Shown here in pieces: positions 3,972 to 47,562 of a stretch of DNA of 47,562 bases; positions within the stretch are counted from its first letter, which is position 1; every line of letters begins with the position of its first letter. The notes beneath the pieces were generated by a model. The model did not search any database and was not told where the DNA came from. It saw nothing but the letters and a program-made list of their open reading frames with translations. The DNA lies in contig JACQGL010000088.1 of assembly GCA_016199525.1 (NCBI GenBank), forward strand, positions 1 to 47,562, given 5' to 3'. Source of the DNA: Armatimonadota bacterium (GTDB taxonomy: Bacteria; Armatimonadota; SYMT01; JACQGL01). Position numbers and translations under genes: made by a program.

Positions 3972-4001
3972 GAGAACCCGGCGGCCGGTCCGGCCCGGCC
4001 C

Positions 4002-4481: not shown

Positions 4482-4633
4482 CGGGCTATTCCCTTCTCTC
4501 TGCGGCGACTTCACCCACCAATGCGGGGCAACTGCGCGCCGGGCAGCATCCACCCTCTGCAGAACGCCAGCGGGGCCCCTGCCAGCACGGTTGGGCGGAT
4601 CTCCTGAGCTCCAGGAGACAATGCCGGGCCGTT

Positions 4634-5356
4634 TCAGAACCAGCCGCCCTTCCTCCGGCCGCCGATCTTCTGCGCGCGGGCGGACGCGTCGATCAGGCTG
4701 ATGATGTAGGCGAGCAGGCCGAGGAGGAAGAGGAAGGGGCCGACGCCCGATTCGTCGATGAGCGTGTTCCGCGGCTGGATGCCGCTGAAGACAAGGAGCA
4801 CCCCCAGTAACGGCCCGAAGCCAAACCACATGCCGACCACGAAGGTGATCGCCAGCACCGCCCCCTTGAAGTACTCCCGGTTGTAGAACTGTCCCAGTCC
4901 CGCGCACAGCAGCGACAATAGGAGGGCGATCAGCGCATTCCGCTTGCGCTCGGCGGCGCCGGTATCGCCTCCGGCGAGGAGCATCTGCGCGGCGAGCCGT
5001 TCCTGCTGCCGCTCACTTATTTCGAGAACCACCTGGGCGAGCCGCTTCTCGGCGGTCGGCATCCCCGGCTGAAGTTCCAGCACTCGCTGGAAACACGCGC
5101 GGGCCTCTTCCAGGCGGCCCTGATCCTGGAGCAGCTCCCCCAGCATCTGCAGGACGTCCACGTCGTCCGCGGCCAGATCCAGGGCGGCACGGCAGCGGGC
5201 TGCCGCCTCCTCAAACTGCGCCCGCATCCGGAAGAGGTGCGCCTCGCGTAACAGCCGGGCAACACGCTCGCCGCTTGAATCCTCAAGCCGCTCCATAACA
5301 TTCCTCGGCGTGGGAATCCCCGGTATTCGGCGCACGGCGACGCCGCTGGGTTCCAA
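4634..5356 (-). CDS. TPR-containing membrane protein with C-terminal TM segments
   Basis: TPR-like repeats (AAARCRAALDLAADDVDVLQMLGELLQDQGRLEEARACFQRVLELQPG) followed by hydrophobic C-terminus (LGQFYNREYFKGAVLAITFVVGM). Confidence 0.6.
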   Translation of the reverse strand: MEPSGVAVRRIPGIPTPRNVMERLEDSSGERVARLLREAHLFRMRAQFEEAAARCRAALDLAADDVDVLQMLGELLQDQGRLEEARACFQRVLELQPGMPTAEKRLAQVVLEISERQQERLAAQMLLAGGDTGAAERKRNALIALLLSLLCAGLGQFYNREYFKGAVLAITFVVGMWFGFGPLLGVLLVFSGIQPRNTLIDESGVGPFLFLLGLLAYIISLIDASARAQKIGGRRKGGWF

Positions 5357-5365
5357 GTGACTGGC

Positions 5366-5725
5366 TCACGCCGTAGCGGGGGCCTCGGCCTCCACCGGGC
5401 GCACCACACGTGTCCAGAATTCTTCTAGCCGATAGTAGACCCGATCGTCCGGATCGAAGAGGTGCACCACCACGTCGCCGAAGTCGATCAGCACCCACCG
5501 CGCTTCGTGGTAGCCCTCGCACCGAATCCCCTTGATGCCGCGTTCCTTCATCATCTCCAGGATCCGATCTGCCACGGCGCGGATGTGAATGTTCGAGGTA
5601 CCCGTGCAGATCACCAGACGATCGGTCATCTGTGTGCGGTCACTCACATCCAGGACGCGCACATCGAGCGCCTTCCGCTCGTCCAGGGCCTGAAGGATGA
5701 CCGCCAGCTTTTCCTCGGTGCTCAA
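5366..5725 (-). CDS. rsfS: Ribosome silencing factor RsfS
   Basis: DRLVICTGTSNIHIRAVADRI...GYHEARWVLIDFGDVVVHLFDPDDRVYYRLEEFW typical of RsfS/Iojap; adjacent to nadD. Confidence 0.92.
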   Translation of the reverse strand: MSTEEKLAVILQALDERKALDVRVLDVSDRTQMTDRLVICTGTSNIHIRAVADRILEMMKERGIKGIRCEGYHEARWVLIDFGDVVVHLFDPDDRVYYRLEEFWTRVVRPVEAEAPATA

Positions 5726-5754
5726 CTAAGCCCTCCTCGGAGTTGGCCGCCGCG

Positions 5755-6354
5755 CTACGCCGCCCGGTACAGCCCGTACTTATGGATATAGGCCGCCACC
5801 GCGTCCGGCACCAGATAGCGGATTGTTTCTCCCCGGCTCAATCGCTGGCGCAGGTCGGTGGCGGAGATATCAACCCCCGGTACCACGAAGGGGCGCACGC
5901 GCTCCAGATAAGCGCGCGGCAGGATGGATTCCAGGCGGCTGATGTCGTACCCGGGACGGTTCGCCACCGCCAGCGTGCAGAGCCGAATCAGTTCTTCGTG
6001 GCGATACCAGGTGGTAAGTTCCAGAACGGAATCCGCCCCCATGATGAGGAAGATCTCCGTTTCGGGGCCGTGCTGCTCCCACAGGGCGCGGATGGTGACC
6101 ACCGTGTAAGAGGGTCCCTCGCGCTCCAGCTCCATGCGGGAGAGATCGAAGTGGGGGTTATCCGCTACGGCAAGCAGGGCCATCGCGTAGCGGTCTTCTG
6201 CGCTGGCGCAAGGCAGCTGGGCCTTGTGGGGCGGCTGTCGCGCAGGCACAAACAGCACGCGCTCCAGTTGAAACGCCCGCCAGGCCTCCTCGGCAATCAC
6301 CAGGTGCCCGAAGTGAATGGGATCGAACGTCCCGCCCATCAGGCCGAGCCGCAC
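5755..6354 (-). CDS. nadD: Nicotinate-nucleotide adenylyltransferase
   Basis: GGTFDPIHFGHLVIAEEAW nucleotidyltransferase motif; C-terminal ISATDLRQRL; GTG start at VRLGLMGGTFDP. Confidence 0.92.
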   Translation of the reverse strand: MRLGLMGGTFDPIHFGHLVIAEEAWRAFQLERVLFVPARQPPHKAQLPCASAEDRYAMALLAVADNPHFDLSRMELEREGPSYTVVTIRALWEQHGPETEIFLIMGADSVLELTTWYRHEELIRLCTLAVANRPGYDISRLESILPRAYLERVRPFVVPGVDISATDLRQRLSRGETIRYLVPDAVAAYIHKYGLYRAA

Positions 6355-6611
6355 GTCCTCACCTCCGCGCCGTGCCAGTGCCTCGGTACACGATTCACTG
6401 GAGCGCGCACGGCCCCCTCCTCGCACGCCCGAGCGCGTGGAGCTTCCTGTTTGAAACTACCCATGCAAGTCGATTTCCGGCGAGATCGCGGCGGCCAGAT
6501 CGTCCGTTGCCCCGCAGGATCGTGCCACCGCATTGCCGCCGGTGGGGCGCTTGCCGATCGGAACAGGGCCGCGGGACGGTTCCCCAGATGGCGGGCACGG
6601 GAAAGACAGCG

Positions 6612-6639
6612 GGGCCCGCTCCCCGAAGGGAACGGGCCC
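6612..6639 (-). terminator. Strong GC hairpin with UUCG-type loop, possible terminator of the minus-strand sigma/small-ORF unit
   Basis: GGGCCCGTTCCCTTCGGGGAGCGGGCCC on the minus strand, just after the stop of ORF 6664..6966; no long U tract. Confidence 0.45.
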
Positions 6640-6663
6640 GGTGCCTGGACGGGAGATCCCCGC

Positions 6664-6966
6664 CTAATTGCCCAGCGAGGAGCCTGCGGCGAGGAGGATG
6701 TAGTCATCACAGATGAGCGAGATCCGACGGAGCATGTTCCGCTCTATGGCGCCCAGCTGGCTTTCCAGCTGGGAAGGAGTCAAGCGATCCGCTTCACTAC
6801 GCAAGGCGGCGGTAGCCCGGTAGCCTTCTTCGAAGACGCGGACGATCTCTTCGATTGCCTCGCCGCTCGCCGAGGAGCGGAGGCCATTCGGCCCACGCAA
6901 CTCCGTGGATTTCATCGTCACCCCGCCCGGTCCGTTACCGGCCTCTGTCAATCCGCGTAGCTCCAC
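6664..6966 (-). CDS. Small conserved-looking protein downstream of sigma factor, function unknown
   Basis: 100-aa ORF overlapping the end of the sigma factor ORF; helical, charged composition. Confidence 0.5.
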   Translation of the reverse strand: MELRGLTEAGNGPGGVTMKSTELRGPNGLRSSASGEAIEEIVRVFEEGYRATAALRSEADRLTPSQLESQLGAIERNMLRRISLICDDYILLAAGSSLGN

Positions 6967-7667
6967 TCGAAGATATCCACGTCCACCATGGAAACCTTCC
7001 GCTTGATACGCATCAGAGCGTTATCAACAGACTTCGTCTTGCAGTGGAGCTCCCTGGCGATTTCCCGATAGGATTTACCCATCTGGTAGCCGGCCAACAC
7101 CTTCCACTCAAATTCGCTGAGCATCTGGTGTAGGAGGGACCGGAGGTGGCGGCTGTCCTCTCGCTTGAGCAGAACTTCCTCGGGGTCCATGTCGTCCCCC
7201 GTCTGGAGGACATCCGCCATGTTCCACTCGGAGGACTCTTCATCTCCGGGGACTTCCAGAGATAGCGATTGGTTGAGCGGCAGTTGCTTCTGGCGTGTGG
7301 CCGCTTTAATGGCCGTAATGATGTGCCGGTGGATGCAGACTTTGGCAAATGCGGGAAAGGATGTGGCCTTATCGTGGCGATAGTCCACGATGGCCTGCCA
7401 AAGCCCAATCATACCTACCTGGAGCAGGTCTTCCCGCTCCGCTCCCACCAGGAAATACGACTTAACCTTGGAGCGCACCAAGTTACGGTACTTATACAGG
7501 ATGTGTTCCGCAGCATCCTGCCGACCGCCCTGGGCAAGTGATACGAGTTCCGAGTCGGCAAGGGCATCGTACTTCCGGCTCAAAACCGCCTCATCGCATG
7601 GATCGAATAGTTCCCTCATCCCTGTCTTTGGAACGGTCTCATCCAGGCGTGGGAAAGAGGTCTGCAC
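6948..7667 (-). CDS. RNA polymerase sigma factor, SigH/Spo0H-like
   Basis: Region 2 (LYKYRNLVRSKVKSYFLVGAEREDLLQVGMIGLWQAIVDYR) and region 4 HTH (YQMGKSYREIARELHCKTKSVDNALMRIKRK). Confidence 0.9.
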   Translation of the reverse strand: MQTSFPRLDETVPKTGMRELFDPCDEAVLSRKYDALADSELVSLAQGGRQDAAEHILYKYRNLVRSKVKSYFLVGAEREDLLQVGMIGLWQAIVDYRHDKATSFPAFAKVCIHRHIITAIKAATRQKQLPLNQSLSLEVPGDEESSEWNMADVLQTGDDMDPEEVLLKREDSRHLRSLLHQMLSEFEWKVLAGYQMGKSYREIARELHCKTKSVDNALMRIKRKVSMVDVDIFEWSYAD

Positions 7668-8322
7668 GGACGTACATCCAGGTTCTCGCCGAAGTGGGAG
7701 GGGGGCGAGCGTACGGTGCTAGATCCGAGAGTCCTCCCGAAGGCTTGGGGAAAGGATCCTCCCTGCAAGCTTTCGGAGGGGGTTCGGAACTCCCTGCTAT
7801 TCCATCTTCGTACGGGAGCCGGCTACGCTCGCCAGGCGAGGGCGCACAGGCCCGTGCGCCAGGACCGATGGCAGCCCTCCGAAGTTACCGCGCCACAGAC
7901 ATCGCTTCCGGACTCCCTCAAGGGAGCAACTTTCTGGCGTGGGGCGACAGAGGAAACAGACACACTCCTTGTGGCCCGAGCCCTGGTTCGGCCAGCCAGG
8001 CCGTTTTCTCCTACTTATTCGGCAGATTACGGCGGCCTTCCTGCGGGCAGGCGAAGAAATTGCGCAACTTTTCCCGAGCGGCCGCGCCCATATATGTGTT
8101 GCGTGTGAGCCGTTTGGATGAGACACAATCCCAAGCAGCGGTCTATTCTCAACCTGACTTGGTAAGGTGACATGGGTGGGAATGGCCATCGGTCCGCCCG
8201 GCGTAAAGCCGCGGCCGTGACGCCACATCTGCTGGCGTGTGCGGCGGCTGCCGGCCCGTGCCCGGCTGGCGTCTGGGCCTCGCCCCTAGAACACTTGCCG
8301 GTAACCGCCAGGATGTGCGCCG

Positions 8323-8348
8323 ATTATAATTCTATAACTATAATTATT
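8323..8348. promoter_or_regulatory. AT-rich element with repeated TATAAT and partial dyads upstream of the kor genes
   Basis: ATTATAATTCTATAACTATAATTATT in an otherwise GC-rich leader. Confidence 0.5.
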
Positions 8349-8590
8349 CGTCTTCCCGGACCGTCGTACAGCGCCCGAGCCGGTGTCGGAGCGAACGGCC
8401 AGCGCGCCGAGCCGCGCAGCGGGCTCGCCGCCGGTCGGCGGGCGGGTGATTCGTGTCCGCCCCGCGGCAACGCACGCGACGGCGACGCGCCCAGGAGCTC
8501 TATGAACCACGTCGTGCGTATCCCCCGCACGACGTGCCTGGCGACATCGATTAGCGCGGCGGCGCGCCGCGAACCCCTGAGGAGTGGGGA

Positions 8591-10606
8591 ATGGAAACGG
8601 TCAATCACAAGCCCAAAGAGATCACCATCGGCCTCGCCGGCGCTGCCGGCGATGGTCTGGACAGGACGGGCTATAACCTGGCCAACGTAGCATCACGGCT
8701 GGGGCTGCATGTTTATGCTTACAACAGTTACCAGTCGCTTATTCGGGGCGGCCACACCTGGCTGCGCCTGCGCATCTCGGAGCGGAAGATTCACACCCAG
8801 GGCGACCACGTCAACGTTGTGATCGCCCTGAACCAGGATAGCATCGAACGACACGCGCGGGCGATTGAGCCGGGCGGCGTGCTGTTATTCAATGGGGATC
8901 GCCTGCGCTGCGATCCGGCGCTGCTGCCGGAGGGCGTGCGGCTTCTGCCCCTACCGTTCAATGAACTGACCGGGGGCCTGGGCAAGCTGTTGCCTGTTAT
9001 GCAGAACACGCTGGCCGTTGGCGCCCTGATGCACCTGGTCGGCCTGGATTTCGAGGTGCTCCGTGGCGTGATGGCGGACACCTTCGGACGCAAAGGCGGC
9101 GAGATCATCGCGCAGAACGTAGCAGTGGCCCAGGCCGGGTTTCACTACGCCCGCGCGCATAGTGAGCCGATCATCGCCGGATGGAGATCGAGCCGCCCCC
9201 GGCTCCCTTTCCTGACGGGTAACACGGCGTTCGCCATGGGCGCCGCGGCGGGCGGCTGCAAGTTCTACGCGGCCTACCCGATGAGCCCTGCGTCGGGCAT
9301 CCTGCACTGGTTTGCGGAACACGGGCCGAAGATCGGCGTGGTGGTGAAGCAGTGTGAGGATGAGCTGGCCGTAGCCAACATGATAATTGGCGCCGGCCAT
9401 GCGGGGGCGCGAGCGATGTGCGCCACCTCGGGGGGCGGCTTCGCGCTGATGACCGAGGCGATCGGGATGGCGGGGATGATCGAGGCACCGGCGGTGTTCA
9501 TCAACGTGCAGCGCGGCGGGCCTTCCACCGGCATCCCCACCAAGACTGAGCAGGGCGATCTGAATCAGGTGTTCGGCGCTTCCCAGGGCGATTACCCCCG
9601 CGCCATCATCGCTCCCGCCACGCTCAAGGAGTGCTACTACTCCGCCGCGGAAGCGCTGAACCTGGCGGAGCAGTTTCAGCTCCCGGTGATGATCCTCTCC
9701 GATCTGCTCCTGAGCGAGCACCGCGAGACCCTGGAACCGGACGACCTGACCCCCGAGGTTCCCATTCGGCGGGGTGAGCGGCTGCGGGAAGCGCCTGCCC
9801 CGGGGCTGAATGGCAAGGGTCCGTTCCGGCGCTACGCCTTCACTCCATCGGGCATCTCGCCGCGGCTCCTCCCGGGCACCCCGGGAGCCATGTACGTTGC
9901 TCCCACCGATGACCACGACGAGCAGGGCATTCTGATCAGCGACGAGCACACGAACACGGCGCTGCGCCGCAAGATCCAGGAAAAGCGCATGCGCAAGATG
10001 GAGGCGCTGCTGGCGGAACTGCCCCCGCCCGTGCTTGAAGGGCCGGCGGATGCCGAGATTACCCTCATCGGTTGGGGATCTACCTGGGGTGTGATTCACG
10101 AGGCGATCGAGCAGCTGGCGGAGCAGGGGATTCGCGCGAACCACCTGCATATCAACTACCTGGTGCCGTTCCACAAGCGGGAAGTCACCGAAATTCTGCG
10201 GCACTGCCAGCGAACCGCCGTGGTGGAGAGCAACTACACCGGCCAGTTCGCTCGCCACCTGCGCGCCGAGACCGGCTTCTCGGTGGACGCCGTGATCACC
10301 AAGTACGACGGGGAGCCGTTCGACCCGAAGCATGTAATCGAGCCGGTCAGGGCCATCCTGGAAGGCCGGCTGCGGGATCTGCGGGTTACCGAGGAGGAAG
10401 CGCGTGAAATTGCTTACCACTACAGTCGCATCTACCTGGGTGACAAGGCCCGCCCGGTGCGGTTTGAACGCGCGCCCGCTGATGGCTACGGCGAACCGCT
10501 GTGGCATGTCCAACTAGCCGACCGAAAGAGCGGCTTGCCACTGGGCGACCTGATCATCGGTCAGGAGACCGGCTCGACCTACGCTTGGCAGGTACACGGA
10601 GAGTAG
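8591..10606 (+). CDS. korA: 2-oxoacid:acceptor (ferredoxin) oxidoreductase, fused gamma-alpha subunit
   Basis: N-terminal gamma-like domain (GLAGAAGDGLDRTGYNLANVASRLGLHVYAYNSYQSLIRGGH) and alpha-type domain (QCEDELAVANMIIGAGHAGARAMCATSGGGFALMTEAIG); RBS GAGGAG. Confidence 0.88.
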   Translation: METVNHKPKEITIGLAGAAGDGLDRTGYNLANVASRLGLHVYAYNSYQSLIRGGHTWLRLRISERKIHTQGDHVNVVIALNQDSIERHARAIEPGGVLLFNGDRLRCDPALLPEGVRLLPLPFNELTGGLGKLLPVMQNTLAVGALMHLVGLDFEVLRGVMADTFGRKGGEIIAQNVAVAQAGFHYARAHSEPIIAGWRSSRPRLPFLTGNTAFAMGAAAGGCKFYAAYPMSPASGILHWFAEHGPKIGVVVKQCEDELAVANMIIGAGHAGARAMCATSGGGFALMTEAIGMAGMIEAPAVFINVQRGGPSTGIPTKTEQGDLNQVFGASQGDYPRAIIAPATLKECYYSAAEALNLAEQFQLPVMILSDLLLSEHRETLEPDDLTPEVPIRRGERLREAPAPGLNGKGPFRRYAFTPSGISPRLLPGTPGAMYVAPTDDHDEQGILISDEHTNTALRRKIQEKRMRKMEALLAELPPPVLEGPADAEITLIGWGSTWGVIHEAIEQLAEQGIRANHLHINYLVPFHKREVTEILRHCQRTAVVESNYTGQFARHLRAETGFSVDAVITKYDGEPFDPKHVIEPVRAILEGRLRDLRVTEEEAREIAYHYSRIYLGDKARPVRFERAPADGYGEPLWHVQLADRKSGLPLGDLIIGQETGSTYAWQVHGE

Positions 10607-34383: not shown

Positions 34384-35586
34384 CTACGCCTCGCGGATGA
34401 GGGCTGACGGAACCGGTAGAGCGGGTCTCGTCGGCGCCATTGCCGCGCCGAGGGCCGCATCCATCCGCCTCACCGCATCCTCTTGCATTCCTGGCAAGAC
34501 GTGGGAGTAGGTGTCGAGGGTGATGGCGACCGTGGCGTGTCCCAACCGCTCGCTCACGATTTTGGGGTGTACCCCCTGGCGGAGGAGCAAGGTGGCGCAG
34601 GTGTGCCGGAGATCGTGGAGCCGCACCCGTGGGAAGCCTGCCACCCCGCGCACAAGGCTGACAAACCACTTGCTGAAGTGATCGGGGTGGATGGGCTGCC
34701 CGTCCGGCAGGGCGAAGACGAGATCGCTGTCGCAGTAGTCCTTCCCGAACAGGCGGCGCTCGTCCGATTGCGTGCGGCGGTGCTCCCCTAGCGCCCTGAC
34801 GGCAAAGGCGGGCAACGGTGGGAGACGCCGCCCCTTTTGTGTCTTCGGCGGCTTGAACGCGAGACCCGCCTTGGTGGCCTCCAGGGACCGGCACACCGTA
34901 AGCCGACCAGCCTGGAGGTCTACGTCCGACCAGCGAAGCGCCAGGAGTTCTCCGCGCCGCACCCCGCTGGCGACGGCAAGCACGATAGGGGCAAACATGC
35001 GGCTCCCGCGCGCGTGGAGAAATAGCTGCACCGTCTCCGCCTCATTCAAGGCGCGCATCTCCACGCGCGCCCTTTGGGGTGGCTCCACACTGTCACACAC
35101 GTTGCGAGGAAGTAGCTGCCACTTGACCGCCTGCTGGAGCGCCTCCCGTAGGATTCGGTGGTGCAGAACGACTGTGGTAGGTGAAAGCCCGCCCTTCCCG
35201 TGCAGGCGGCCCTTCTGGAGGGCGCGCGCATGGCAAGCCTGGATGTGGAGGGGTTGAAGCTTGCTTAGAGGAATGCTCCCGAGCGCGGGAATCAGATGGG
35301 CGCGGATGATCTCGCTATAGCGTTCAAACGTCCTGCCCGCGACGTTGACGCGGGCGTAATCCTCCAGCCACCGAACGAGGAACGCCCCCGTGGTGAGCCG
35401 CGAGGGGTTAACGAACCCCCCGTTCTGCACCTCGGCCAGGACGCGGTTCAGCTCCGCCTGCGCCTGGCGCTTCGTGCCTTTGACGGTTAGTGTCTTCTGT
35501 TTCCGCCGGTGCGTCACCGGGTCGCGCGGCAGTTCGATCCAGAGTGTCCAGCTCCCGGGGGAGCGCTCTTTCATGGAGCCTTTCAT
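34384..35586 (-). CDS. Tyrosine recombinase / phage integrase
   Basis: Catalytic pattern SGVRRGELLALRWSD ... LHDLRHTCATLLLRQGVHPKIVSERLGHATVAITLDTYSHV; start MKGSMKERSPGSW with upstream AAGGAAA. Confidence 0.93.
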   Translation of the reverse strand: MKGSMKERSPGSWTLWIELPRDPVTHRRKQKTLTVKGTKRQAQAELNRVLAEVQNGGFVNPSRLTTGAFLVRWLEDYARVNVAGRTFERYSEIIRAHLIPALGSIPLSKLQPLHIQACHARALQKGRLHGKGGLSPTTVVLHHRILREALQQAVKWQLLPRNVCDSVEPPQRARVEMRALNEAETVQLFLHARGSRMFAPIVLAVASGVRRGELLALRWSDVDLQAGRLTVCRSLEATKAGLAFKPPKTQKGRRLPPLPAFAVRALGEHRRTQSDERRLFGKDYCDSDLVFALPDGQPIHPDHFSKWFVSLVRGVAGFPRVRLHDLRHTCATLLLRQGVHPKIVSERLGHATVAITLDTYSHVLPGMQEDAVRRMDAALGAAMAPTRPALPVPSALIREA

Positions 35587-36539
35587 TCGTCTTTTCCTTT
35601 CGAGTGGCCCGTTGCCCCGCTTCGCAGCTTGCGCCCCCGGAAGCGGTTGCCGCACGGGATGGAGCAGAACTTCTTGTCTGACCTGGTAGGACGGAAGAGC
35701 TTGCCGCACGCAGGATCCCGGCAGACGCGCGTCTGCTCTTGGGCGGCGTCGCGCAGCAGCCCCACGGCGGCGAGCGAAAGGAGGGATGGAAAGGCCCACC
35801 CGAAGGCGATGCCGTTTCCGTGGGGAACGGGAATCGGGTGGGCGCGAGAGAGATAGAGGTCCGCATCGGCGAAAGGCCATCCATGGACCCACAGGCGGAA
35901 GTCCCCGAGGGCGCGTTCAATCGCCTCTGTGGTCTCCGCGTAGTCCCTCCAGAAGTCTTCCGAGTTCAAAGACGGGTAGCGGCGGCTTCGCCCGTCCAGG
36001 GTAGGGAAAAAGGGCGCGTACGCGTTCTCCAGCGAGCGTTCCCGCCAGGTACCCGACAGCTCCTGCCACAGAACAACTCCGGCCCGCTCGCCGTTCAGCG
36101 TGAGCTGCGCGAGTTCTTTCATGGAAGCGACGCCCACGCGCACAAAGTTGTGCCGCTCCACGGCAATCAACGGCCCCTCTCCGGTGTTCTCGCCTGGAAA
36201 GGCAACCTGCTGGCAGGGTTCGCCTGATTCGTAATGTACCCGCGTCGGGCGGAACCGCGCTTCGATTACGTGGTGCCGCAGGATGCCGAGCGGCCCCCGC
36301 TGGCTGTAGAACGCCTGGAGGGCGTTCGGATCGCGCGTGTTGAGGTCCAATAACTCCCGCCACAGAGGCGCAGGGCGGTCGTGCCCGCTCTCGGTGAGTG
36401 GGTCGTATACCTCTGGTCGCGCTCCGGGGATGGGTCGCAACCACTCACCGTACCACTCGTGCGGTGTGCGAACCCATCTACCGGTCAGCCGCACGGTAGG
36501 CGCTGCCACCTCCCCGGGCGACGGAGTAACGTTTTTCAT
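35583..36539 (-). CDS. CGNR zinc-finger domain protein
   Basis: C-terminal CRDPACGKLFRPTRSDKKFCSIPCGNRFRGRK; ATGA overlap with the integrase start. Confidence 0.75.
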   Translation of the reverse strand: MKNVTPSPGEVAAPTVRLTGRWVRTPHEWYGEWLRPIPGARPEVYDPLTESGHDRPAPLWRELLDLNTRDPNALQAFYSQRGPLGILRHHVIEARFRPTRVHYESGEPCQQVAFPGENTGEGPLIAVERHNFVRVGVASMKELAQLTLNGERAGVVLWQELSGTWRERSLENAYAPFFPTLDGRSRRYPSLNSEDFWRDYAETTEAIERALGDFRLWVHGWPFADADLYLSRAHPIPVPHGNGIAFGWAFPSLLSLAAVGLLRDAAQEQTRVCRDPACGKLFRPTRSDKKFCSIPCGNRFRGRKLRSGATGHSKGKDE

Positions 36540-36626
36540 AACGTGATAATCATATCATCAACGGGTTAGAACGTCACATAATGATTCTGGGGGGGGCGAT
36601 ACGCGCTACTTCAAGGAGGAAGAAAG

Positions 36627-36821
36627 ATGGATTTGAACGCGCAGAGGGTGTTGACGGTTGCCGAGACGGCTCGCGAGCTGCGCCTCGGTCGCTCAGCGAC
36701 CTACGAGGCCGTAAAACGCGGCGAGATTCCATCCGTTCGCATCGGTCGCCGAATTCTCATACCGGTGGCCGCGCTGGAGCGCCTCCTGGCCGAGGCAGGC
36801 CGCGCGGAGGGGGAGCGTTAG
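36627..36821 (+). CDS. Excisionase/HTH_17-type DNA-binding protein
   Basis: VLTVAETARELRLGRSATYEAVKRGEIPSVRIGRRILIPVAALERLL. Confidence 0.85.
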   Translation: MDLNAQRVLTVAETARELRLGRSATYEAVKRGEIPSVRIGRRILIPVAALERLLAEAGRAEGER

Positions 36822-36823
36822 GC

Positions 36824-37369
36824 GTGAGCAGCGCCCCATCCGAGATGCTGCTTGCCGCTCTGGAGTACTTGCGCCTGGGCTGGCACCCTATCCCGCTCTG
36901 CTGGCCGGGCGAACACTGCCGCTGCGCCTGCTACAAGGGCCACACCGACCCCAAGGACGTGGGCAAGGCGCCGCTCCTGGGCAGCGGCTACGAGCGGCTG
37001 ACCGTCACCGAAGCCCTAGCACGGCGCTGGTGGGGAGAGCGCTGGCCGGAGGCGAACGTCGGCATCCTGCTCGCGCCGTCGGGGCTGGTGGTGATCGACC
37101 TGGACGGGCAGGCGGCCATCGAGGAAGCAACGGCCTGTGGCCTGCCCGCACGCGGGCCGGTCGCGCGCAGCGGGCGGACGGATGGCGGCGAGGGCCGGCA
37201 CCTCTACTGCCGCCGCCCGGAGGGCTGCCCGGTCACCAGGGCATCGCACAGGGGGAGCTGCCGCCGCATCGAGGTCCTTTCCGCCGGGTATGCGGTCGCG
37301 CCGCCGTCCCGTCACCGGAGCGGACGCCGGTACGAGCGGCTGGTATCGCCCTGGAGGGATGAGGAATGA
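36824..37369 (+). CDS. Small bifunctional primase/polymerase (prim-pol) domain protein
   Basis: GWHPIPLC...KAPLLGSGY...NVGILLAPSGLVVIDLDG...SGRTDGGEGRHLYCRRP; GTG start just after the HTH stop. Confidence 0.8.
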   Translation: MSSAPSEMLLAALEYLRLGWHPIPLCWPGEHCRCACYKGHTDPKDVGKAPLLGSGYERLTVTEALARRWWGERWPEANVGILLAPSGLVVIDLDGQAAIEEATACGLPARGPVARSGRTDGGEGRHLYCRRPEGCPVTRASHRGSCRRIEVLSAGYAVAPPSRHRSGRRYERLVSPWRDEE

Positions 37370-39303
37370 CCGCCGCCCAGGCCCGAACGCTGCCGGACGC
37401 GCCCGAGTGGGCGCTCCAGTTCCTTCGCGAGGTGGGGCAGGCGAGCGGAGAGGCGGCGGTGTTGCCTGCGGAACTCCCCCGTGTGGACGTGGCGACCCTA
37501 AATGTGTCAGAGCGGATCAGGCGCCTGATCCGGAAGGGGCCGGCAGCGGAACCGGAGCGGTGGGAGGACAGGAGCGACCCGCAGTGGTTTGTGGCCCGGG
37601 AGATGATTGGCGCCGGCTACGACGATGCCACCATCGCCGCCGTGATGCTTGACCCGCAGAACAAGATCGGCGCGAAGGCGCGGGAGCAGGGGCGCACGTG
37701 GCTGGCAGGAGACATCGCCCGCGCGCGCCAGAAACCGCAGGAGGCGAGGGTGCAGATGCCCATTTCCGGCAAGGGAGAGGACGTATCCGAACTGCGACCC
37801 GAGGAAGCCGGCAGGAACGGCTCCGAACCGCCGCCCGATGGCCCGCCCGACCGGGGCGACGATCCCCATTTCACGGACACGGGCAACGCCCTGCGCCTGG
37901 TGGCGCGGCACGGGGAGGACCTTCGGCACTGTGAGCTGTGGGGGAAATGGTTGATCTGGGATGGTCGGCGCTTTGCGCCAGACGAGACGAACGGGATCTA
38001 TCGCCTAGCGATGGAGACCGCGCGCTCCCTCTACGCCGAGGCCGCCGTAGCGCCCGATGGCAAGGAGCGGCAGCAACTCGCCGCCTGGGCGATCAAGTCA
38101 GAGCAGGGCCAACGCATTCGGGAGATGATCGGCCTGGCGCGGGCGAAGATGCCCATTACCCCCAGCCAGCTCGACCGCGATCCCTGGCTCTTGACGTGCC
38201 TGAACGGAACAATCGACCTGCGGACGGGTGAGCTGCGTAAGCACCGACGCGAGGATCTCATCACCAAGTTGGTGCCGGTGGGGTACGACCCCGAGGCGAC
38301 CTGCCCGACGTTCGATGCGTTTCTGCACCGGATCTTGAATGGCCGGGAGGCGCTGATCGCGTTCCTGTGGCGCGCCCTGGGCTACTCGCTCACCGGCATC
38401 ACGCGGGAGCGCGTGCTCTTCGTGGCGCACGGCACGGGGAGGAACGGTAAGACGACACTCTTCGAGGCCGTCAACAGCCTTCTGGGCGATTACGCCCTCC
38501 GCACACCGGCGGAGACGGTGCTGATGAAGAGGGAGAGCGCCATCCCCAACGACGTTGCCGCCCTGGTCGGTCGGCGCTTCGTGTTCGCATCCGAGACCGA
38601 GGAGGGCAAGCGCCTGGCCGTCTCCCAGGTGAAGGACCTGGTGGGCGGGGACACGATATCTGCGCGCTTTATGCGTGCGGAGTGGTTTCGCTTCAAACCG
38701 GAATTCAAACTGTGGTTGGCGACCAATCACAAGCCGGTCATCCGGGACAGCAACCGGGCGATCTGGGACCGCATACGGCTCATTCCGTTCACGGTCCGGA
38801 TACCGGACGGCGAGGAGGACAAAGGCCTCCCCGCCAAGCTGCGGGCCGAACTCGCTGGCATCCTGGCCAGAGCGGTCCGGGGCTGCCTAGAGTGGCAGCG
38901 GGATGGCCTAGCGGAGCCGGAGGAAGTGCTCGTGGCTACACGCGAGTACTGGGAGCAGGAGGACGTGCTGGGCGCGTTCCTCTCCGAGTGCTGCATCCGC
39001 TCGCCAGAGGCCCGGGCGGGCGCGACCGAACTCTTCCAAGCATACGTCGCTTGGTCTGGGGACAAAGCCACGTCACAGAACCGCTTCGGCAGGCGGCTGC
39101 GGGAGGCTGGGTACGAGAGCCGGAGAGCACCCTCTGGCCGCTCCGAGTGGCGGGGCATTGGCCTGCTCTCCGAACCTTTCGAGCCGAAATCGTATTACCC
39201 GCATCGCGCGCGCGTAAAGCTCAATACGAAAACGGTCCAGAAGGTTCGGAAGGTTCGGTACGCGAGCGTGAGTCGGCCTGTTGGAGCTGCGGCGAGGAAG
39301 TGA
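37366..39303 (+). CDS. Phage/plasmid SF3 helicase (D5/P4-type primase C-terminal domain)
   Basis: HGTGRNGKTTLFEAVNSLLGDYA Walker A; KLWLATNHKPVIRDSNRAIWDRIRLIPF; ATGA overlap with prim-pol. Confidence 0.9.
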   Translation: MTAAQARTLPDAPEWALQFLREVGQASGEAAVLPAELPRVDVATLNVSERIRRLIRKGPAAEPERWEDRSDPQWFVAREMIGAGYDDATIAAVMLDPQNKIGAKAREQGRTWLAGDIARARQKPQEARVQMPISGKGEDVSELRPEEAGRNGSEPPPDGPPDRGDDPHFTDTGNALRLVARHGEDLRHCELWGKWLIWDGRRFAPDETNGIYRLAMETARSLYAEAAVAPDGKERQQLAAWAIKSEQGQRIREMIGLARAKMPITPSQLDRDPWLLTCLNGTIDLRTGELRKHRREDLITKLVPVGYDPEATCPTFDAFLHRILNGREALIAFLWRALGYSLTGITRERVLFVAHGTGRNGKTTLFEAVNSLLGDYALRTPAETVLMKRESAIPNDVAALVGRRFVFASETEEGKRLAVSQVKDLVGGDTISARFMRAEWFRFKPEFKLWLATNHKPVIRDSNRAIWDRIRLIPFTVRIPDGEEDKGLPAKLRAELAGILARAVRGCLEWQRDGLAEPEEVLVATREYWEQEDVLGAFLSECCIRSPEARAGATELFQAYVAWSGDKATSQNRFGRRLREAGYESRRAPSGRSEWRGIGLLSEPFEPKSYYPHRARVKLNTKTVQKVRKVRYASVSRPVGAAARK

Positions 39304-39392
39304 GTACGCGCAGCCAGAGGACCTGTTCCGCCTGCGGCTGGCTGATCTGCGGCAACTGCGGCGCGTGTGAGAAGGGCTGCGAGCGTCGGTGA
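39300..39392 (+). CDS. Cys-rich 30-aa microprotein (possible zinc ribbon)
   Basis: GTG overlapping helicase TGA; VSTRSQRTCSACGWLICGNCGACEKGCERR. Confidence 0.4.
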   Translation: MSTRSQRTCSACGWLICGNCGACEKGCERR

Positions 39393-39642
39393 TCCCGTGA
39401 CCGAAGAGCGGTCCCCTGAGCAGCCCGACGGACCGTGAGCACTCGGTGCCTGGGTCACCGGGCGGCCGCGAAGCGCACGCGGGTGCGGCGTGCTCTGGGG
39501 AGGCGCCCCTGGCCGCCCTGCGGAGCGGTGGTTTGCGGTATGAGCCGTTACGACATAAACGACCGATTGCGGGTGCTGTTTGGCAGCCCGGATGGAGAGG
39601 AGTCACCTCGTGAATAGCTGCGAACTGAAGAAAAAGGATAAT

Positions 39643-39846
39643 ATGCCGAAGTATCGCATTATAAATGGAGACGCGGACGATGTGGAGTACTGGGTAAACA
39701 GGCTCGCCGCCCAGGGATACATTGTCAGCCACATCGCCGCGTGCAACCCCCTCCAAGTGGTGGTGCTGCTGGCCCGTACGGGCAAGTCGCCGCCTCCCGC
39801 TGCGGAGAACGAGAGCGGCGGGCGTGTTACGAAACCGGGGGAATGA
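39643..39846 (+). CDS. Small protein of unknown function
   Basis: MPKYRIINGDADDVEYWVNRLAAQGYIVSHIAACNPLQVVVLLART; AAAAAGGA upstream. Confidence 0.55.
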   Translation: MPKYRIINGDADDVEYWVNRLAAQGYIVSHIAACNPLQVVVLLARTGKSPPPAAENESGGRVTKPGE

Positions 39847-39849
39847 ACA

Positions 39850-40176
39850 ATGCCACGACCGCGAGAGTACGCGAGCTCTGCGGCGAGGCAGAAAGCCTAT
39901 CGCGCACGCAAAGTGCAAGGGGCAGCCTCGGCGGCTACGCAACGCCCGCCACCCACCGCCCCTCGGTCAGCGGAACGGCCTCTGACGCGGCAGGCACGGC
40001 TGCAAGCGCTGGCCGAGGAGATGCGGGCTGTCGCCCGCCAGTGCTCGCACTGGCGGTACGAGCTGGCCGCGCTGGGGCTGACGGGCGACGGGTTTGAGCA
40101 GTTAGCGGAAGAGTTACGGCACGGGGCCGAGTGCGTGGCACGGCAGGCAGTGGTCGGAAGTAAGTGTGCGAGGTGA
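39850..40176 (+). CDS. Small basic protein of mobile element, function unknown
   Basis: ORF MPRPREYASSAARQKAYRARKVQGA...; 3-bp gap after upstream gene. Confidence 0.5.
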   Translation: MPRPREYASSAARQKAYRARKVQGAASAATQRPPPTAPRSAERPLTRQARLQALAEEMRAVARQCSHWRYELAALGLTGDGFEQLAEELRHGAECVARQAVVGSKCAR

Positions 40177-40221
40177 ACCCAAGGATTCCGGCCTTGGCGG
40201 CCAGAATGACCTAAAGTAACT

Positions 40222-40545
40222 ATGCAACAGGACGCGATCCGTGCCGCTGTGGCAGCGGCGCGGTGGGTGATGACGCACCATGCCCTGCAGCAATCTGGAA
40301 GCCGCCGCATGGGAAGCGGGGAAATAGCTCACGCCCTGGCTGGATGCGAAGTGCTGGAGGACTACCCGAACGATCCGCGTGGAGAGAGCGCCCTGGTACT
40401 CGGGTATACGGCTGCCCACCGGCCCATTCACGCCGTCTGCACGTTTGACCCGAGCGGGTCACTGGTTATCATCACCGTCTATGATCCGGGAATGCCGTGG
40501 TGGCTGGATGAACGGACCCGTGCGCCGGGAGGAGGGACGCCCTGA
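40222..40545 (+). CDS. DUF4258-like protein, candidate toxin
   Basis: AARWVMTHHALQQSGSRRMGSGEIAHALAGCEVLEDYPNDPRGESALVLGYTAAHRPIHAVCTFD...VIITVYDP. Confidence 0.75.
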   Translation: MQQDAIRAAVAAARWVMTHHALQQSGSRRMGSGEIAHALAGCEVLEDYPNDPRGESALVLGYTAAHRPIHAVCTFDPSGSLVIITVYDPGMPWWLDERTRAPGGGTP

Positions 40546-40787
40546 TGGTCACTCGCTGTTACCTGTGTGGGGGGCAGATAGAACGGCGGCGGGTAACGGC
40601 TGAAATCCGCTGGGGTGAAGAGCTGACGCTGGTGGAAGACGTTCCCGCCTGGGTGTGCGGGAACTGCGGCGAAGCCTACTTCGACGCGGCTACCTGCACG
40701 GCACTGGACCGGCTGCGCCAGGACCATCCCCCGGCCCGCCGCAAGGTGGAAGTCCCCGTTTACGCCTTCTCTGGCGCTGACTACTGA
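40545..40787 (+). CDS. YgiT/MqsA-type zinc-finger antitoxin
   Basis: CYLCGGQIERRRVTAEIRWGEELTLVEDVPAWVCGNCGEAYFD; TGATG overlap with the DUF4258 ORF. Confidence 0.8.
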   Translation: MVTRCYLCGGQIERRRVTAEIRWGEELTLVEDVPAWVCGNCGEAYFDAATCTALDRLRQDHPPARRKVEVPVYAFSGADY

Positions 40788-42159: not shown

Positions 42160-43575
42160 TCAGTGTTCAAGGGCCTTCTGCACGAGCGCGCGCATCTCGC
42201 CGATGCGACCCTCCATCTCGTCGGGCACCACGGCATACACGCGAACGGCGTACAAGGTGTACCTTGACAGGACCGACATCAGCGAGTTTTTGAGCGCCAC
42301 GATGGGGACGAGCGGGGTGTCAGGCGCTCTCAAGATGTGGATCTCTTCCTCGAACTTGCGGCGGACCTCCTCCACGTCGCCCGCGGTGCCGTGACCGTCC
42401 ACGGTGTCCCTGATTGGGGCGTAGGGCTGGATCTTCGTCAGCGCCGTGAGCGGCTTGTCCCAGACGTAGATAAGCTTCGGGTCAAGTCCGAGCGTGTCTG
42501 CCCACTGGTCCCGCTTGTCGCGGGCCGTCTTTAGAAGCAACCGCGAATGCTCCGGTTTGATCAGTTCGTCGATCTTCTCCCAGGCGCCGAGGAGTTTGGG
42601 AGGCCGGCGCTCCAGAATGGCATCGCACTTGAGCTTGAGCGCCGGATCTGAGGTGTCGCCCCGGAGCTCTGCGATCCGCTGCGTCACGAACGTGTCGTCG
42701 AACCGAGACCATTCGCGCGACCTGATGTATCCGGTGACGTCTGCGGCAGAGAACGCCAGGCCTCCGGCCTCGAGGAGAGCGGTGAGCACATCCTTCAGCA
42801 CCAACTCCAGTCCGGCCACGGTCTTCTGGTAGGTTATCTGCTGGTAGTCGAAGTACCGGCAGAGCAGGAAGTGCTCGGCGGTGCGCAACGCCTTCTCACG
42901 AAAGCAGATCCGGTCATCGGCAAAACAGATCTGGGTCAGGAGATAGCCGAGATCAGCGGATCCATAGGGCAGGCCGGTGTGAAGCGCCGTGCGCAGCAGG
43001 TAGTCGATGCGGTCAGCGTCAAGGTCCGAACTCACGAGGCTGCTGAACCGAAGCGCCGGATCCTCGCGCATGAACACGTGGGAGACCTTGGCCGGGTCGA
43101 ACCCTCCCCCCTCCAACGCGGACCGAATCTCAGGGTCCTCCTTGACGACCTCCTCACCAGCGCGCTCGTGCTTGAAGAACAGGGGGCGCGTGCCAGCAGG
43201 CGCGCTGGCTCCAGTGAAGAGCATCTTGGAGAAGTGGTTCGCGATGGCCTCCTCCATCGCGTGAGAGAACGCGTAGTGACCCACGTCGTGGAGCAGGGCG
43301 GCCAGGCGGTACAGCTGCTTCTCGTGTGCGTCAATGGTGACTGCGCTGTTGGCCTCCAATGCATCGAGCATCCGCCCGGCTACGTGACACGCTCCGACGG
43401 AGTGGCTGAACCGGGAGTAATCGGCCCCGGGGAACACCAGGTGAGCGAGCCCAAGCTGTCTAACCTGGCGGAGCCGCTGGAAGGAACTGGTTTGGAGGAT
43501 CGCAATCTCTAGCTCGCTCACGCCGATCGTACCGTGAACGGGATCTGCGATCCTCTTGAAGTTGAAGGCGGACAC
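42160..43575 (-). CDS. HD-domain phosphohydrolase (SAMHD1/dGTPase-like superfamily)
   Basis: DPVHGTIGVSELEIAILQTSSFQRLRQVRQLGLAHLVFPGADYSRFSHSVG ... LAALLHDVGHYAFSHAME ... SSDLDADRIDYLLRTALHTG. Confidence 0.88.
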   Translation of the reverse strand: MSAFNFKRIADPVHGTIGVSELEIAILQTSSFQRLRQVRQLGLAHLVFPGADYSRFSHSVGACHVAGRMLDALEANSAVTIDAHEKQLYRLAALLHDVGHYAFSHAMEEAIANHFSKMLFTGASAPAGTRPLFFKHERAGEEVVKEDPEIRSALEGGGFDPAKVSHVFMREDPALRFSSLVSSDLDADRIDYLLRTALHTGLPYGSADLGYLLTQICFADDRICFREKALRTAEHFLLCRYFDYQQITYQKTVAGLELVLKDVLTALLEAGGLAFSAADVTGYIRSREWSRFDDTFVTQRIAELRGDTSDPALKLKCDAILERRPPKLLGAWEKIDELIKPEHSRLLLKTARDKRDQWADTLGLDPKLIYVWDKPLTALTKIQPYAPIRDTVDGHGTAGDVEEVRRKFEEEIHILRAPDTPLVPIVALKNSLMSVLSRYTLYAVRVYAVVPDEMEGRIGEMRALVQKALEH

Positions 43576-43587
43576 TGCGGTCTTGTC

Positions 43588-44076
43588 TCACTGGAGCAGG
43601 CCAGCCCGTTGCAGCGCCTCCTCGGCAAGCTCCATATGGGGCGCGAGATGTGGCTTCTTCTCGCGCAGGACTGCTTCCGCCCTTTCGTGGGAGTAGCGGG
43701 ACACCCGTCGGAGGAAATGGACGGAGGCGACGAGTTCGAGCCAATCCTCCTGACCGAGATTGAAGGCCAATGACGTGAGCAGCCCAGCGACCCGCTGGAG
43801 GCGGTCGCGGACATCAGGGTGCAGCTGCTTGCCTTCGGCGCCGGGATCGTCGGAAGCAATAGCCTCGGCGAGGCTGTAGTAGTCACGGGTAAGCGCGGGG
43901 CTGTAAGGTCCCATAAGGTACCAGCTGAACCGGTACCCCAGGTCCACGCCCGTAAGCTGGCCTAGATAAACGGCCTTCTGGATCAGCTTACGGTCGTCTA
44001 CGGAGTTGATCTCCGCAGGTACTCTGAGTTCGTCGAGGAGGAGCTTCAGAGCGATCAAGCGTGCTTCCATCAGCAA
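43588..44076 (-). CDS. Small protein with Panacea/DUF4065-like pattern, partner of the HD gene
   Basis: RLIALKLLLDELRVPAEINSVDDRKLIQKAVYLGQLTGVDLGYRFSWYLMGPYSPALTRDYYSL; stop 12 bp before the HD start. Confidence 0.55.
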   Translation of the reverse strand: MLMEARLIALKLLLDELRVPAEINSVDDRKLIQKAVYLGQLTGVDLGYRFSWYLMGPYSPALTRDYYSLAEAIASDDPGAEGKQLHPDVRDRLQRVAGLLTSLAFNLGQEDWLELVASVHFLRRVSRYSHERAEAVLREKKPHLAPHMELAEEALQRAGLLQ

Positions 44077-44131
44077 GACCCTCGCTGCTCTGATAGGGCC
44101 GGCTTGGACCGGGAAGTCCGTCTAGAATCCT

Positions 44132-44163
44132 TGATAGTACCAGTATACCACGGCCTCGGGCAA
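44132..44163 (-). promoter_or_regulatory. Candidate sigma-70-type promoter for the small protein/HD pair
   Basis: Minus strand TTGCCC - 18 bp - TACTAT in the 136-bp gap downstream of DUF499. Confidence 0.3.
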
Positions 44164-44212
44164 AACGCACATGAATGTTTGGCGGTTCCATGCAGAGGTC
44201 TCTCCGAGCGGG

Positions 44213-47059
44213 TCACTCGCCGACGCTGAAGTCGAGGCCGAGTTGGCGCGCCGCTTCCTGCATGGCCTTGATGGCCGGGTCGTCGTCGGCCGGGGCAGAC
44301 TCCGGATTCGGCTCCATCTCGAAACTGACGCCGATCTTGAGATTCCTCAGGTTCATGCGGGCAGCCGGACTGATGAAGCAGCGGAACAGCTCGCCGTAGT
44401 TCTCGATGGATACGTTCCCGCTGACAGTGAGCCGGCCAATCCGGGCGGAGCTGGCGGGGACCGCGGCGGTGCCGCGGGGAGCGGGCGCAGTGGCGCCTGG
44501 TCCGCCTGCGGACGGGTCGGCGGCTCCGGGCACTCCTGACGGCGAGGGGCCGACCGGGGCAGCGGGACCGGCCGCCGCGAGGGTGGGCGGCAGCTCGGGC
44601 GCAAATGGTGCGATGATCCATACGCCGTCTTCAGTGGCGTCGAAGAACGGTTCCCGGCGGCAGTAGCGGGCCTGGAGCGTCGAAGGACTGGTGCCCCGCC
44701 CGATTCCGATGACGCCGTCTTTGCACGCCTGGATGATACCCGTGACGACAGCATCCCGGCCGGCGATGAGTGGCTTGTCGGTGAAGCGAAGGAAGGCGTC
44801 GATGGCGTCCTTTACCCGGATGCCGCCGTCGGACGGCACTAGTCCGGCTTCCTGGAGCGTGACCGAGCCGACGCGCCGCAGAATCCACTCCTCGTCCTCG
44901 ATCAGGGTGGTCCACAGATAGGCGAGGTGGTCGGCGATGGCGGGACGGGCGTCCGCCAATTGGCAGCCCTCGGGTTCCTGCCCGCAGATCCGCAACGCCA
45001 CGGTGTAGGCAGGCCCGATGGCGGCGGCGTAATCGCGCTTCGCCTTCTCGATCCGTTGCTTCAGGTCGCCTCTCTGTTCCTCATCCAGTTGCGCGCCGAA
45101 CTCAAACTGAATGGCCTCCAGGGCGGCGTGTTCCCGGCGGGCGCCCGCGAGTCGGGACACCCCCTGCGTGGTCCCCGCCAGGAAAACGAGGGTGTTCCGG
45201 TAGGTGCGCTCCCTCCCGCCACAGCGCGCACTGAGAGTGAGGACATGCTGCCGAACCGCCTCCCGGCTATCGCTGTCCACGCCCCAGCCGAGCGAGGGTG
45301 GCAGGATGAGCAGAGTGAGACTGCGCTGCTCCGGCAGGTCTGGCTGGGGATCGACCAGGATGCGCCACGAGGCTCCGCCCGGAGCGCTCCCTCGCTGCGC
45401 CACGGCCCGAAGGTCTTCCAGGATCTCGCTATCGAAGCTACGGCTCGCGGCCTGCTGGCGGTACTGGACCAGCAGCTTGTTGAGGTTGGGCCGGGTGGCG
45501 AACCAGTACCGCTTGCCGATGGCCCCCGCGCTGGTAGCGTGGAGGTAGAAACACCGGTCCTCCAACTCCAGCAGCGCGCCGTCCAAGTAGCCCCAATTCA
45601 CGCCGATGCGGCCGCAGGCTGCCTTTAGATCGCGGGAGCTGTAGCCGCTGCGGTCCGCCTGCCCGCCGAAGGAGGCGAGCAGGATCGCGGAGGCCAGGCC
45701 CCGACCGATCCCTTCGCGGCGATAGTCGCCTCCGCGCTCCTCATCGAAAGCTGCCGCGTTCGACCTGTCCCCGATAAGGTCTGCTGCGGCGACCGAGCGG
45801 TAGGCGGGCCCCCACAGGCGGGTGAGAGCGCCCATGAGCGGGTCGAGCGACCACCGGATGTGGCAAGGCTGGATGAGGTACTGCGTTTGGGTGTTGCCGT
45901 CACGGCGGTCCCAGAGATCAGCCACGATGCTGGCGAGGAGGCGAAGCACGCCGCGCGTCCGCTGGAAGTCGGGGTGGCCGCCCCAGCGCGTGTACAGGGT
46001 GTCGATCAGCGAGGGGTGGAACGGGAAGGCGCGCTCGATCTCCTGGGCGTAAGCCGGCCGGGAGGTTTCGGGAGGGACCTCGCCCGAGTGGGCGGCATAG
46101 AGGGCGGCGTACGCCTGCGCCAGTCGGCGGGGGTAGTCCTCTTCGCCTGGCGTGGTGATGCTCTCGAACAGCCGGGCGCGGACCACATGGTAGATCTCGT
46201 CGTCTGCCACCGGGTTCACGTCCGATCCCAGGCGCTGGAACCGGCGCTCCAGCGTGGTGAACGCCTCCTGGCCCGCCTCGCTCTGCGCCACCTCGTACTT
46301 GCTGGCGGGAAGCGTCGCGACTACCACGGCGCCGGGAACCTGCTGGACGGCCTCCGTAAGCTGCTGGATGAAGGAGATGGTTTGGTCGGCGAGGGTGGTG
46401 TCGCCAACGGGGACCGCGGCGGCGCCCACGCAGTAGTCAGCCAGCTCGTCCAGCAGGATGAGGCACGGGGCAGCGCGCCGTAGGACCTCGACGAAGATCC
46501 CCTGTGGAACACGCTGCGTCTCGTCGTTGGCGCGCACCAGATCGTAGAGGGGGACGCCGCCGAGCTGGAGGGCCAGCTCGCCCCAGGGGGTGCGGGTGTG
46601 GACGCCCTCCGGGGTCCGCCGGCCCTGGGTCGGGTCGCACATGCCGTTGGTGAAGACAGCGACGCCACGTACCTCCGTGGGCAGGCGGTCCTCAATCACG
46701 CGGCGCAGGTCCGCAGCCGCCGGGTGGCTGCGGAGCGCCTCAGCATTGCGGGCCAGGTGCCAGAGGGCAACCAATGTATGCGTCTTGCCCCCGCCGAAGG
46801 CAGTCTGGAGGCTGATGATGCGGTCGCCGCTGTCGGTATCGCCCCACAGCGCGCGGGCCACCCGGGAGAGGATGGTGCCGAGGCCCACCGTCATATAGGT
46901 CTTCTGGAAGAACTGAGCGGCGTCGCGGTAGACCTGGGGAGCGGTCTCCTGGACTACCGCCCAGAGGTTGGCGGCGAAGACCGACTCGTCGAGGCGGCCC
47001 TTTCGAATGTCTTCGTGGGGCGTGGCTATGGCATACCAGGGCTTCAGCTCGCTGCTCAT
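44213..47059 (-). CDS. DUF499-type AAA+ ATPase
   Basis: PWYAIATPHEDIRKGRLDESVFAANLWAV...LQTAFGGGKTHTLVALWHL (Walker A), APCLILLDELADYCVG (Walker B). Confidence 0.85.
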   Translation of the reverse strand: MSSELKPWYAIATPHEDIRKGRLDESVFAANLWAVVQETAPQVYRDAAQFFQKTYMTVGLGTILSRVARALWGDTDSGDRIISLQTAFGGGKTHTLVALWHLARNAEALRSHPAAADLRRVIEDRLPTEVRGVAVFTNGMCDPTQGRRTPEGVHTRTPWGELALQLGGVPLYDLVRANDETQRVPQGIFVEVLRRAAPCLILLDELADYCVGAAAVPVGDTTLADQTISFIQQLTEAVQQVPGAVVVATLPASKYEVAQSEAGQEAFTTLERRFQRLGSDVNPVADDEIYHVVRARLFESITTPGEEDYPRRLAQAYAALYAAHSGEVPPETSRPAYAQEIERAFPFHPSLIDTLYTRWGGHPDFQRTRGVLRLLASIVADLWDRRDGNTQTQYLIQPCHIRWSLDPLMGALTRLWGPAYRSVAAADLIGDRSNAAAFDEERGGDYRREGIGRGLASAILLASFGGQADRSGYSSRDLKAACGRIGVNWGYLDGALLELEDRCFYLHATSAGAIGKRYWFATRPNLNKLLVQYRQQAASRSFDSEILEDLRAVAQRGSAPGGASWRILVDPQPDLPEQRSLTLLILPPSLGWGVDSDSREAVRQHVLTLSARCGGRERTYRNTLVFLAGTTQGVSRLAGARREHAALEAIQFEFGAQLDEEQRGDLKQRIEKAKRDYAAAIGPAYTVALRICGQEPEGCQLADARPAIADHLAYLWTTLIEDEEWILRRVGSVTLQEAGLVPSDGGIRVKDAIDAFLRFTDKPLIAGRDAVVTGIIQACKDGVIGIGRGTSPSTLQARYCRREPFFDATEDGVWIIAPFAPELPPTLAAAGPAAPVGPSPSGVPGAADPSAGGPGATAPAPRGTAAVPASSARIGRLTVSGNVSIENYGELFRCFISPAARMNLRNLKIGVSFEMEPNPESAPADDDPAIKAMQEAARQLGLDFSVGE

Positions 47060-47075
47060 GGGTGATCTCGCTACT

Positions 47076-47144
47076 CTATCGTCGCGGATGATAGCCTATC
47101 GTCTCGACGATAGGCTGCGGCGTTGATCATTAGAACGACGATAG
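47076..47144. promoter_or_regulatory. Operator cluster of CTATCGTC half-sites upstream of DUF499
   Basis: CTATCGTC-GCG-GATGATAG (47076-47094), CCTATCGTC-TC-GACGATAGG (47095-47114), half-site GACGATAG (47137-47144). Confidence 0.7.
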
Positions 47145-47151
47145 ACGACTG

Positions 47152-47562
47152 TTAGGACGCTTGGCCGGGCTCAAACACCTCGTAGTAGGTCCAGCGAGGT
47201 GGGGTACCGCGGCGGCGCAGCTTCTTCTGTTCACACAAGCGCCGGAGCAGGCGACCAGCCTGCTGGCCGGAAAGCCCGCACAGATCCATGACGTGTTTGC
47301 GCTCGATCCGTCCGTGTGCCTGCACGTACTCCAGGACCAGGCCCTCCTGCCGCAGGCGTGACAGGCCATGGGTACGCACGTAGCCCGTGGACTGCCCGAG
47401 CCGGCGGTAGACGGCGGCACTGAGATGGTACTGGCGCCCACGGCGGGTCCCTGCCGCTTCCACCAGGCCGCGCTCCGATAGGCGTTCGAGGACACGGCGG
47501 CCATCAGCCGTCCCCTTCTGCGTGAGGCGCCCCGCCGTCTCCGCATCGATCCGGCGCTCGAG
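47152..47562 (-). CDS. C-terminal fragment of a winged-helix protein (AlbA_2/RecG-like C-terminal type), cut by window edge
   Basis: Frame stays open to the window end (LERRIDAETAGRLTQKGTADGRRVLERLSERGLVEAAGTRRGRQYHLS...RKHVMDLCGLSGQQAGRLLRRLCEQKKLRRRG). Confidence 0.5.
   Translation of the reverse strand, partial: LERRIDAETAGRLTQKGTADGRRVLERLSERGLVEAAGTRRGRQYHLSAAVYRRLGQSTGYVRTHGLSRLRQEGLVLEYVQAHGRIERKHVMDLCGLSGQQAGRLLRRLCEQKKLRRRGTPPRWTYYEVFEPGQAS

Follow-up and report, generated by a model that had tools for sequence, protein, structure and literature searches.

The HD phosphohydrolase gene and the small gene beside it form an autonomous two-gene module that occurs independently of DUF499. 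By its adjacency to restriction-type defence genes, which exceeds the background, this pair is a restriction-associated accessory module. The original prediction had combined four neighbouring genes, coding for a winged-helix protein, a DUF499 ATPase, the small protein and the HD enzyme, into a single new defence system. Such a four-gene system is not supported; what stands out is the unit of HD enzyme and small protein, which recurs as an accessory of restriction-type defence. The literature searched yielded no description of this pair, which does not prove that none exists, and a DISARM/YprA preprint does not contain the queried terms on the pair.

The four genes are situated at the right end of the window, by which we mean the whole stretch of 47,562 nt that was analysed. 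The window is a complete contig (C49) of an assembly comprising 266 contigs and 3.74 Mb. Consequently, the sequence upstream of position 47562 cannot be read in the source genome. All four reading frames were confirmed to be intact and to lie on the minus strand. The gene identities proposed earlier were found to be correct, with the Panacea label of the small protein being weakly so by sequence.

The DUF499 gene and the probable end of an Hma locus

The DUF499 gene (44213..47059, minus strand) encodes an AAA+ ATPase of 948 aa, which matches the Pfam family DUF499 at 2.5e-27 and the HmaC model of PADLOC at 8.6e-125. A Walker A motif (GGGKT) is found at residue 89, and a Walker B-like motif is also present. 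The contig ends 503 bp upstream of this gene. In between lies a gene which is open at its 5' end (47152..47562, minus strand) and codes for the C-terminal 136 aa of a HATPase_c_4/winged-helix protein of the SLFN_AlbA_2 type. This fragment matches a 285-aa protein of genome G043 at 8e-29, which is classed as HATPase_c_4/winged-helix by a Pfam search. In G043 the respective gene sits between the helicase and the methylase of an Hma locus.

Hma systems are the DUF499-centred BREX-related (BR) Type-1 systems (PMC12839542). In the loci of relatives the HmaC-type proteins are accompanied by an SNF2-type helicase and a DUF1156-type N6 methylase. Based on the HmaC match and the winged-helix match to G043, the simplest reading of the region from 44.2 to 47.6 kb is that it represents the 3' terminal part of an ordinary Hma (DUF499 'BREX-related') locus; the methylase and the helicase would then be located past the contig end. 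The HmaC ATPase of the window has the fitting length and domain order, and the accessory gene corresponds to that of the G043 Hma locus. In contrast, the HD pair after HmaC is unusual for Hma, and the comparison covers the HmaC and winged-helix end of the locus only.

A genome of the same order (G001) contains helicase and methylase fragments together with a DUF499 C-terminal piece that is 57% identical to the protein of the window (L033, contig G001:C61). This locus, which also carries an AAA_21/DUF4276 gene pair, is a decayed Hma locus. In the window's own genome there is a further DUF499 gene of the HmaC type (L034, contig C222), with 32% identity to that of the window. The end of a methylase gene lies upstream of this second DUF499 gene, and no HD pair was detected there.

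The HD protein and its small partner

The HD gene (42160..43575, minus strand, GTG start) codes for a protein of 471 aa, which matches the Pfam HD family at 6e-9 and has 2hek, EF1143 (2o6i/3irh/4lrl) and SAMHD1 as relatives in the PDB. Both the H..HD..D metal site and the homology across the catalytic region, as found in enzymes of the SAMHD1/EF1143 kind, are present. The metal-site residues H58, H96, D97 and D188 are intact and are conserved across 42 paired HD homologues, except for two frames without the N-terminal part. The protein is probably an active phosphohydrolase; we infer dNTPs as its substrate and predict a dNTP triphosphohydrolase activity. The substrate varies among HD dNTPases.

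HD dNTPases are already known as separate effectors of phage defence. In Clover the HD dGTPase becomes toxic when the partner is missing (PMC12265719), and this system is the nearest functional precedent for the pair. Like the dGTPase effectors and CloA of Clover, the protein of the window is a SAMHD1-like HD enzyme whose metal site is intact and which has a partner gene of its own; it matches the antiphage dGTPase models weakly. Whereas the partner in Clover is the nucleotidyltransferase CloB, the HD enzyme of the window is accompanied by a 162-aa protein with a DarG-CTD-like fold, and the pair is not a Clover system.

The small gene (43588..44076, minus strand) is separated from the HD gene by 12 bp, as had been noted before, and from the DUF499 gene on the same strand by 137 bp. 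Its open reading frame of 162 aa starts from a TTG at 44076. The homologues begin at the ATG at 44070, which is probably the true start of the gene. The YwgA-like small protein of the window has no Pfam match, and among ten homologues a single one matches PF13274 (SocA_Panacea), with a marginal E value of 0.0075. Since the small protein gave weak DarG matches, a structure prediction was made. The AlphaFold model has a pLDDT of 91, and in the PDB it is clearly matched by Foldseek to the DarG chains of the DarTG complex 7yk3 alone (probability 1.00, TM 0.56/0.49). At the sequence level the likeness to the C-terminal domain of DarG is weak; from the model the small protein is predicted to adopt the fold of this domain. 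By sequence, the designation 'Panacea-like' can be retained in a weak form.

In DarTG, it is the C-terminal domain of DarG that binds the DarT toxin and thereby blocks it. The likeness of the pair to DarTG and Panacea (SocA) systems (PMC8832971) lies in the fold predicted for the small protein, which corresponds to the DarG chains of 7yk3. The pair contains neither DarT nor a macrodomain, its partner is an HD enzyme, and it does not belong to the DarTG systems. HD partners are not mentioned in the Panacea paper. Relatives of the small protein were absent from the plasmids and IMG/VR contigs searched, and a Foldseek search against viral models yielded no convincing match.

Occurrence and neighbours of the pair

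A first search in 151 relatives revealed four homologues of the small protein, all of which adjoin an HD homologue and none of which adjoins DUF499. The wider search comprised 292 Armatimonadota genomes as well as 301, 268 and 268 genomes from the phyla of the Sphaerobacter, Planctomycetaceae and Egibacteraceae matches and yielded 46 usable loci, including the window. Both genes are present in 42 of these loci, and three of the remaining four are cut at a contig end. DarG-like matches of 340-390 aa were left out of this count, as were the small genes of L063 and L121, which are without an HD gene in the short remaining flank.

The pair was found alongside HmaC at two of about 76 HmaC places in the 292 Armatimonadota genomes, namely in the window and at a DUF499 fragment in G074. 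The link between HmaC and the pair is thin, as there is one case in the phylum besides the window and this case concerns a truncated DUF499 (P about 0.01, a figure that ignores island clustering and shared ancestry). In view of this co-occurrence, and of the second HmaC without the pair in the window's own genome, a single new four-gene DUF499/HD system is not supported. A DUF499-specific subtype was likewise rejected, the pair being mostly free of DUF499.

On the HD tree the gene order changes once, the order small-HD being found in the window's clade (L064 is convergent) and the order HD-small elsewhere. Priestia carries a Bacillus-type chromosomal pair in housekeeping surroundings, both genes of which match the profiles. 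By synteny we take this pair to be ywfO-ywgA. Both of its genes are alike to those studied here, but the context is a housekeeping one there and a defence context in our loci. In a rough control with nine HD homologues on plasmids or a prophage eight were found to be without the small partner, and the stretches examined around the nine contain no annotated RM gene. Two of the nine, both alphaproteobacterial, lie near Shedu or ABC-three-component genes. A recurring cluster of radical SAM, 3'-5' exonuclease, AAA ATPase and HD genes without the small partner was observed on the alphaproteobacterial plasmids L216, L220 and L221, once near Shedu, and is possibly a separate HD-based defence locus.

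A gene of an RM, DISARM or Hma system is situated at a distance of at most 1.5 kb in 16 of 45 loci, the window being left out. One match was obtained with the same gene panel in 40 control stretches of the same genomes (479 kb), and 0.75 loci are therefore expected (P 2e-16). The gene panel was built partly from the positive loci; after removal of the loci from which it was derived, 10 of 39 loci remain compared with 0.65 expected (P 2e-9), both Poisson P values being indicative only as they ignore the clustering of defence genes in islands and the shared ancestry of the loci. The assemblies are fragmented, and the gene caller was a simple one. DrmA is present in 16 of the 292 genomes, and four pairs adjoin it versus 0.003 expected under the assumption of 4-Mb genomes and about 18 DrmA places, and in one of the four the small gene, situated at a contig end, stands for the pair. 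For about two thirds of the pairs there is no recognised defence neighbour.

The key partner genes were checked by PADLOC or Pfam. In four loci the pair lies between core genes, and in these operon-internal cases the genes are separated by few bases or overlap. The order is DrmD-DrmMI-HD-small-DrmA-DrmB in the two DISARM loci L060 and L102, HsdM-HD-small-HsdS-HsdR in the type I locus L118 (HsdS assigned by eye), and methylase-HD-small-type III REase in the type III locus L108. Further arrangements are HsdM..HsdR-HD-small (L170 and L172), HsdM-S-R-small-HD (L059) and HmaA-type helicase-HD-small (L169, with McrBC-like genes upstream by eye). In relatives, the same pair is hosted by DISARM, type I and type III RM loci, whereas in the window the host locus is probably Hma. 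In L065 from Planctomycetaceae (2261-9483), which was left out of the count, TIR-NACHT and a SLATT-type membrane protein are encoded directly upstream of small-HD.

About 10 changes of the defence context have to be assumed on the HD tree. The closely related loci L059 and L099 differ in that type I RM lies alongside the former and DISARM alongside the latter. It would appear from this that the pair moves from one defence system to another. The earlier suggestion of a sensor/effector-like pair in defence holds in so far as the small gene and the HD gene are found together across several phyla and occur in or beside type I, type III, DISARM and Hma loci above chance.

Possible roles of the pair and the presumed integrated element

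We see about an even chance that the genes in question represent two units, i.e., the 3' end of an Hma locus and an autonomous small/HD module which is repeatedly recruited by restriction-type loci and likely constitutes a restrained dNTPase effector. The HD enzyme would act as a dNTP triphosphohydrolase whose activity comes at a cost, and the small protein would bind the enzyme directly and keep it restrained. The restraint could be lifted upon engagement or failure of the partner restriction system, or when a phage product disturbs the pair. The freed HD enzyme would then starve phage replication as a second line; in the window the pair may be coupled in this way to the Hma locus. Such a mechanism fits the stable pairing, the HD metal site, the antitoxin-type fold and the operon-internal position.

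Three alternatives were considered. The pair could be an ancient housekeeping regulator of the nucleotide pool that is found in defence islands merely because mobile DNA builds up there. Housekeeping contexts in many genomes, the Bacillus-type chromosomal pair and the integrase and primase near the pair of the window point in this direction, but in DISARM, type I and type III loci the pair is embedded among the core genes of one operon, and random insertion would tend to break such operons. We regard this explanation as rather unlikely. That the winged-helix protein, DUF499, the small protein and the HD enzyme form one integrated defence system, a dedicated Hma subtype, is in our view improbable. 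DUF499 and the small gene do lie 137 bp apart on one strand, there is the second adjacency in G074, and in the planctomycete G701 an HmaA-type helicase lies directly upstream of the HD-small pair; yet the low count at HmaC places, the mostly DUF499-free occurrence and the pairless second HmaC of the same genome argue against it.

We give just as little credence to a role in sanitising, in which the HD enzyme would destroy modified dNTPs that phages use for restriction-resistant DNA, with the small protein tuning it. Methylation-based systems as partners would be explained by such a role, but the antitoxin-type fold of the partner is explained equally well or better if a toxic enzyme has to be restrained.

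The reading as two units with a restrained dNTPase can be taken further. Only tentatively do we propose that the pair is a general, exchangeable second-line effector which arose from an ancient nucleotide-pool regulator and is repeatedly incorporated into the operons of defences based on methylation (type I, type III, DISARM and Hma), with the small protein directly restraining the dNTPase and sensing engagement or failure of restriction. If one HD family with an antitoxin-fold partner is indeed repeatedly built into restriction operons, nucleotide depletion would be linked to restriction-modification, and this would suggest how restriction systems cope with phages escaping cleavage. For the YwgA-like proteins this would provide a role that can be tested, namely the regulation of the adjacent HD enzyme.

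The original prediction had also placed the defence genes as cargo in an integrated element, and the existence of such an element is supported in part. The left part of a presumed element was found at 34384..39303, comprising a tyrosine integrase domain (PF00589, 34495-35001, minus strand), an excisionase-like HTH (HTH_17) and a primase module with Prim-Pol and D5_N primase-helicase domains. Because a repeat scan of the window revealed no att-like repeat and the right end is outside the contig, the defence genes are putative cargo; promoter and terminator scans of the window were uninformative. Following the primase module, a DUF4258 gene and, immediately after it, a gene for a small CxxC protein were observed, the latter resembling by eye a YgiT-type antitoxin. 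The region 34384-40787 is read as an integrated element with a possible toxin–antitoxin pair.
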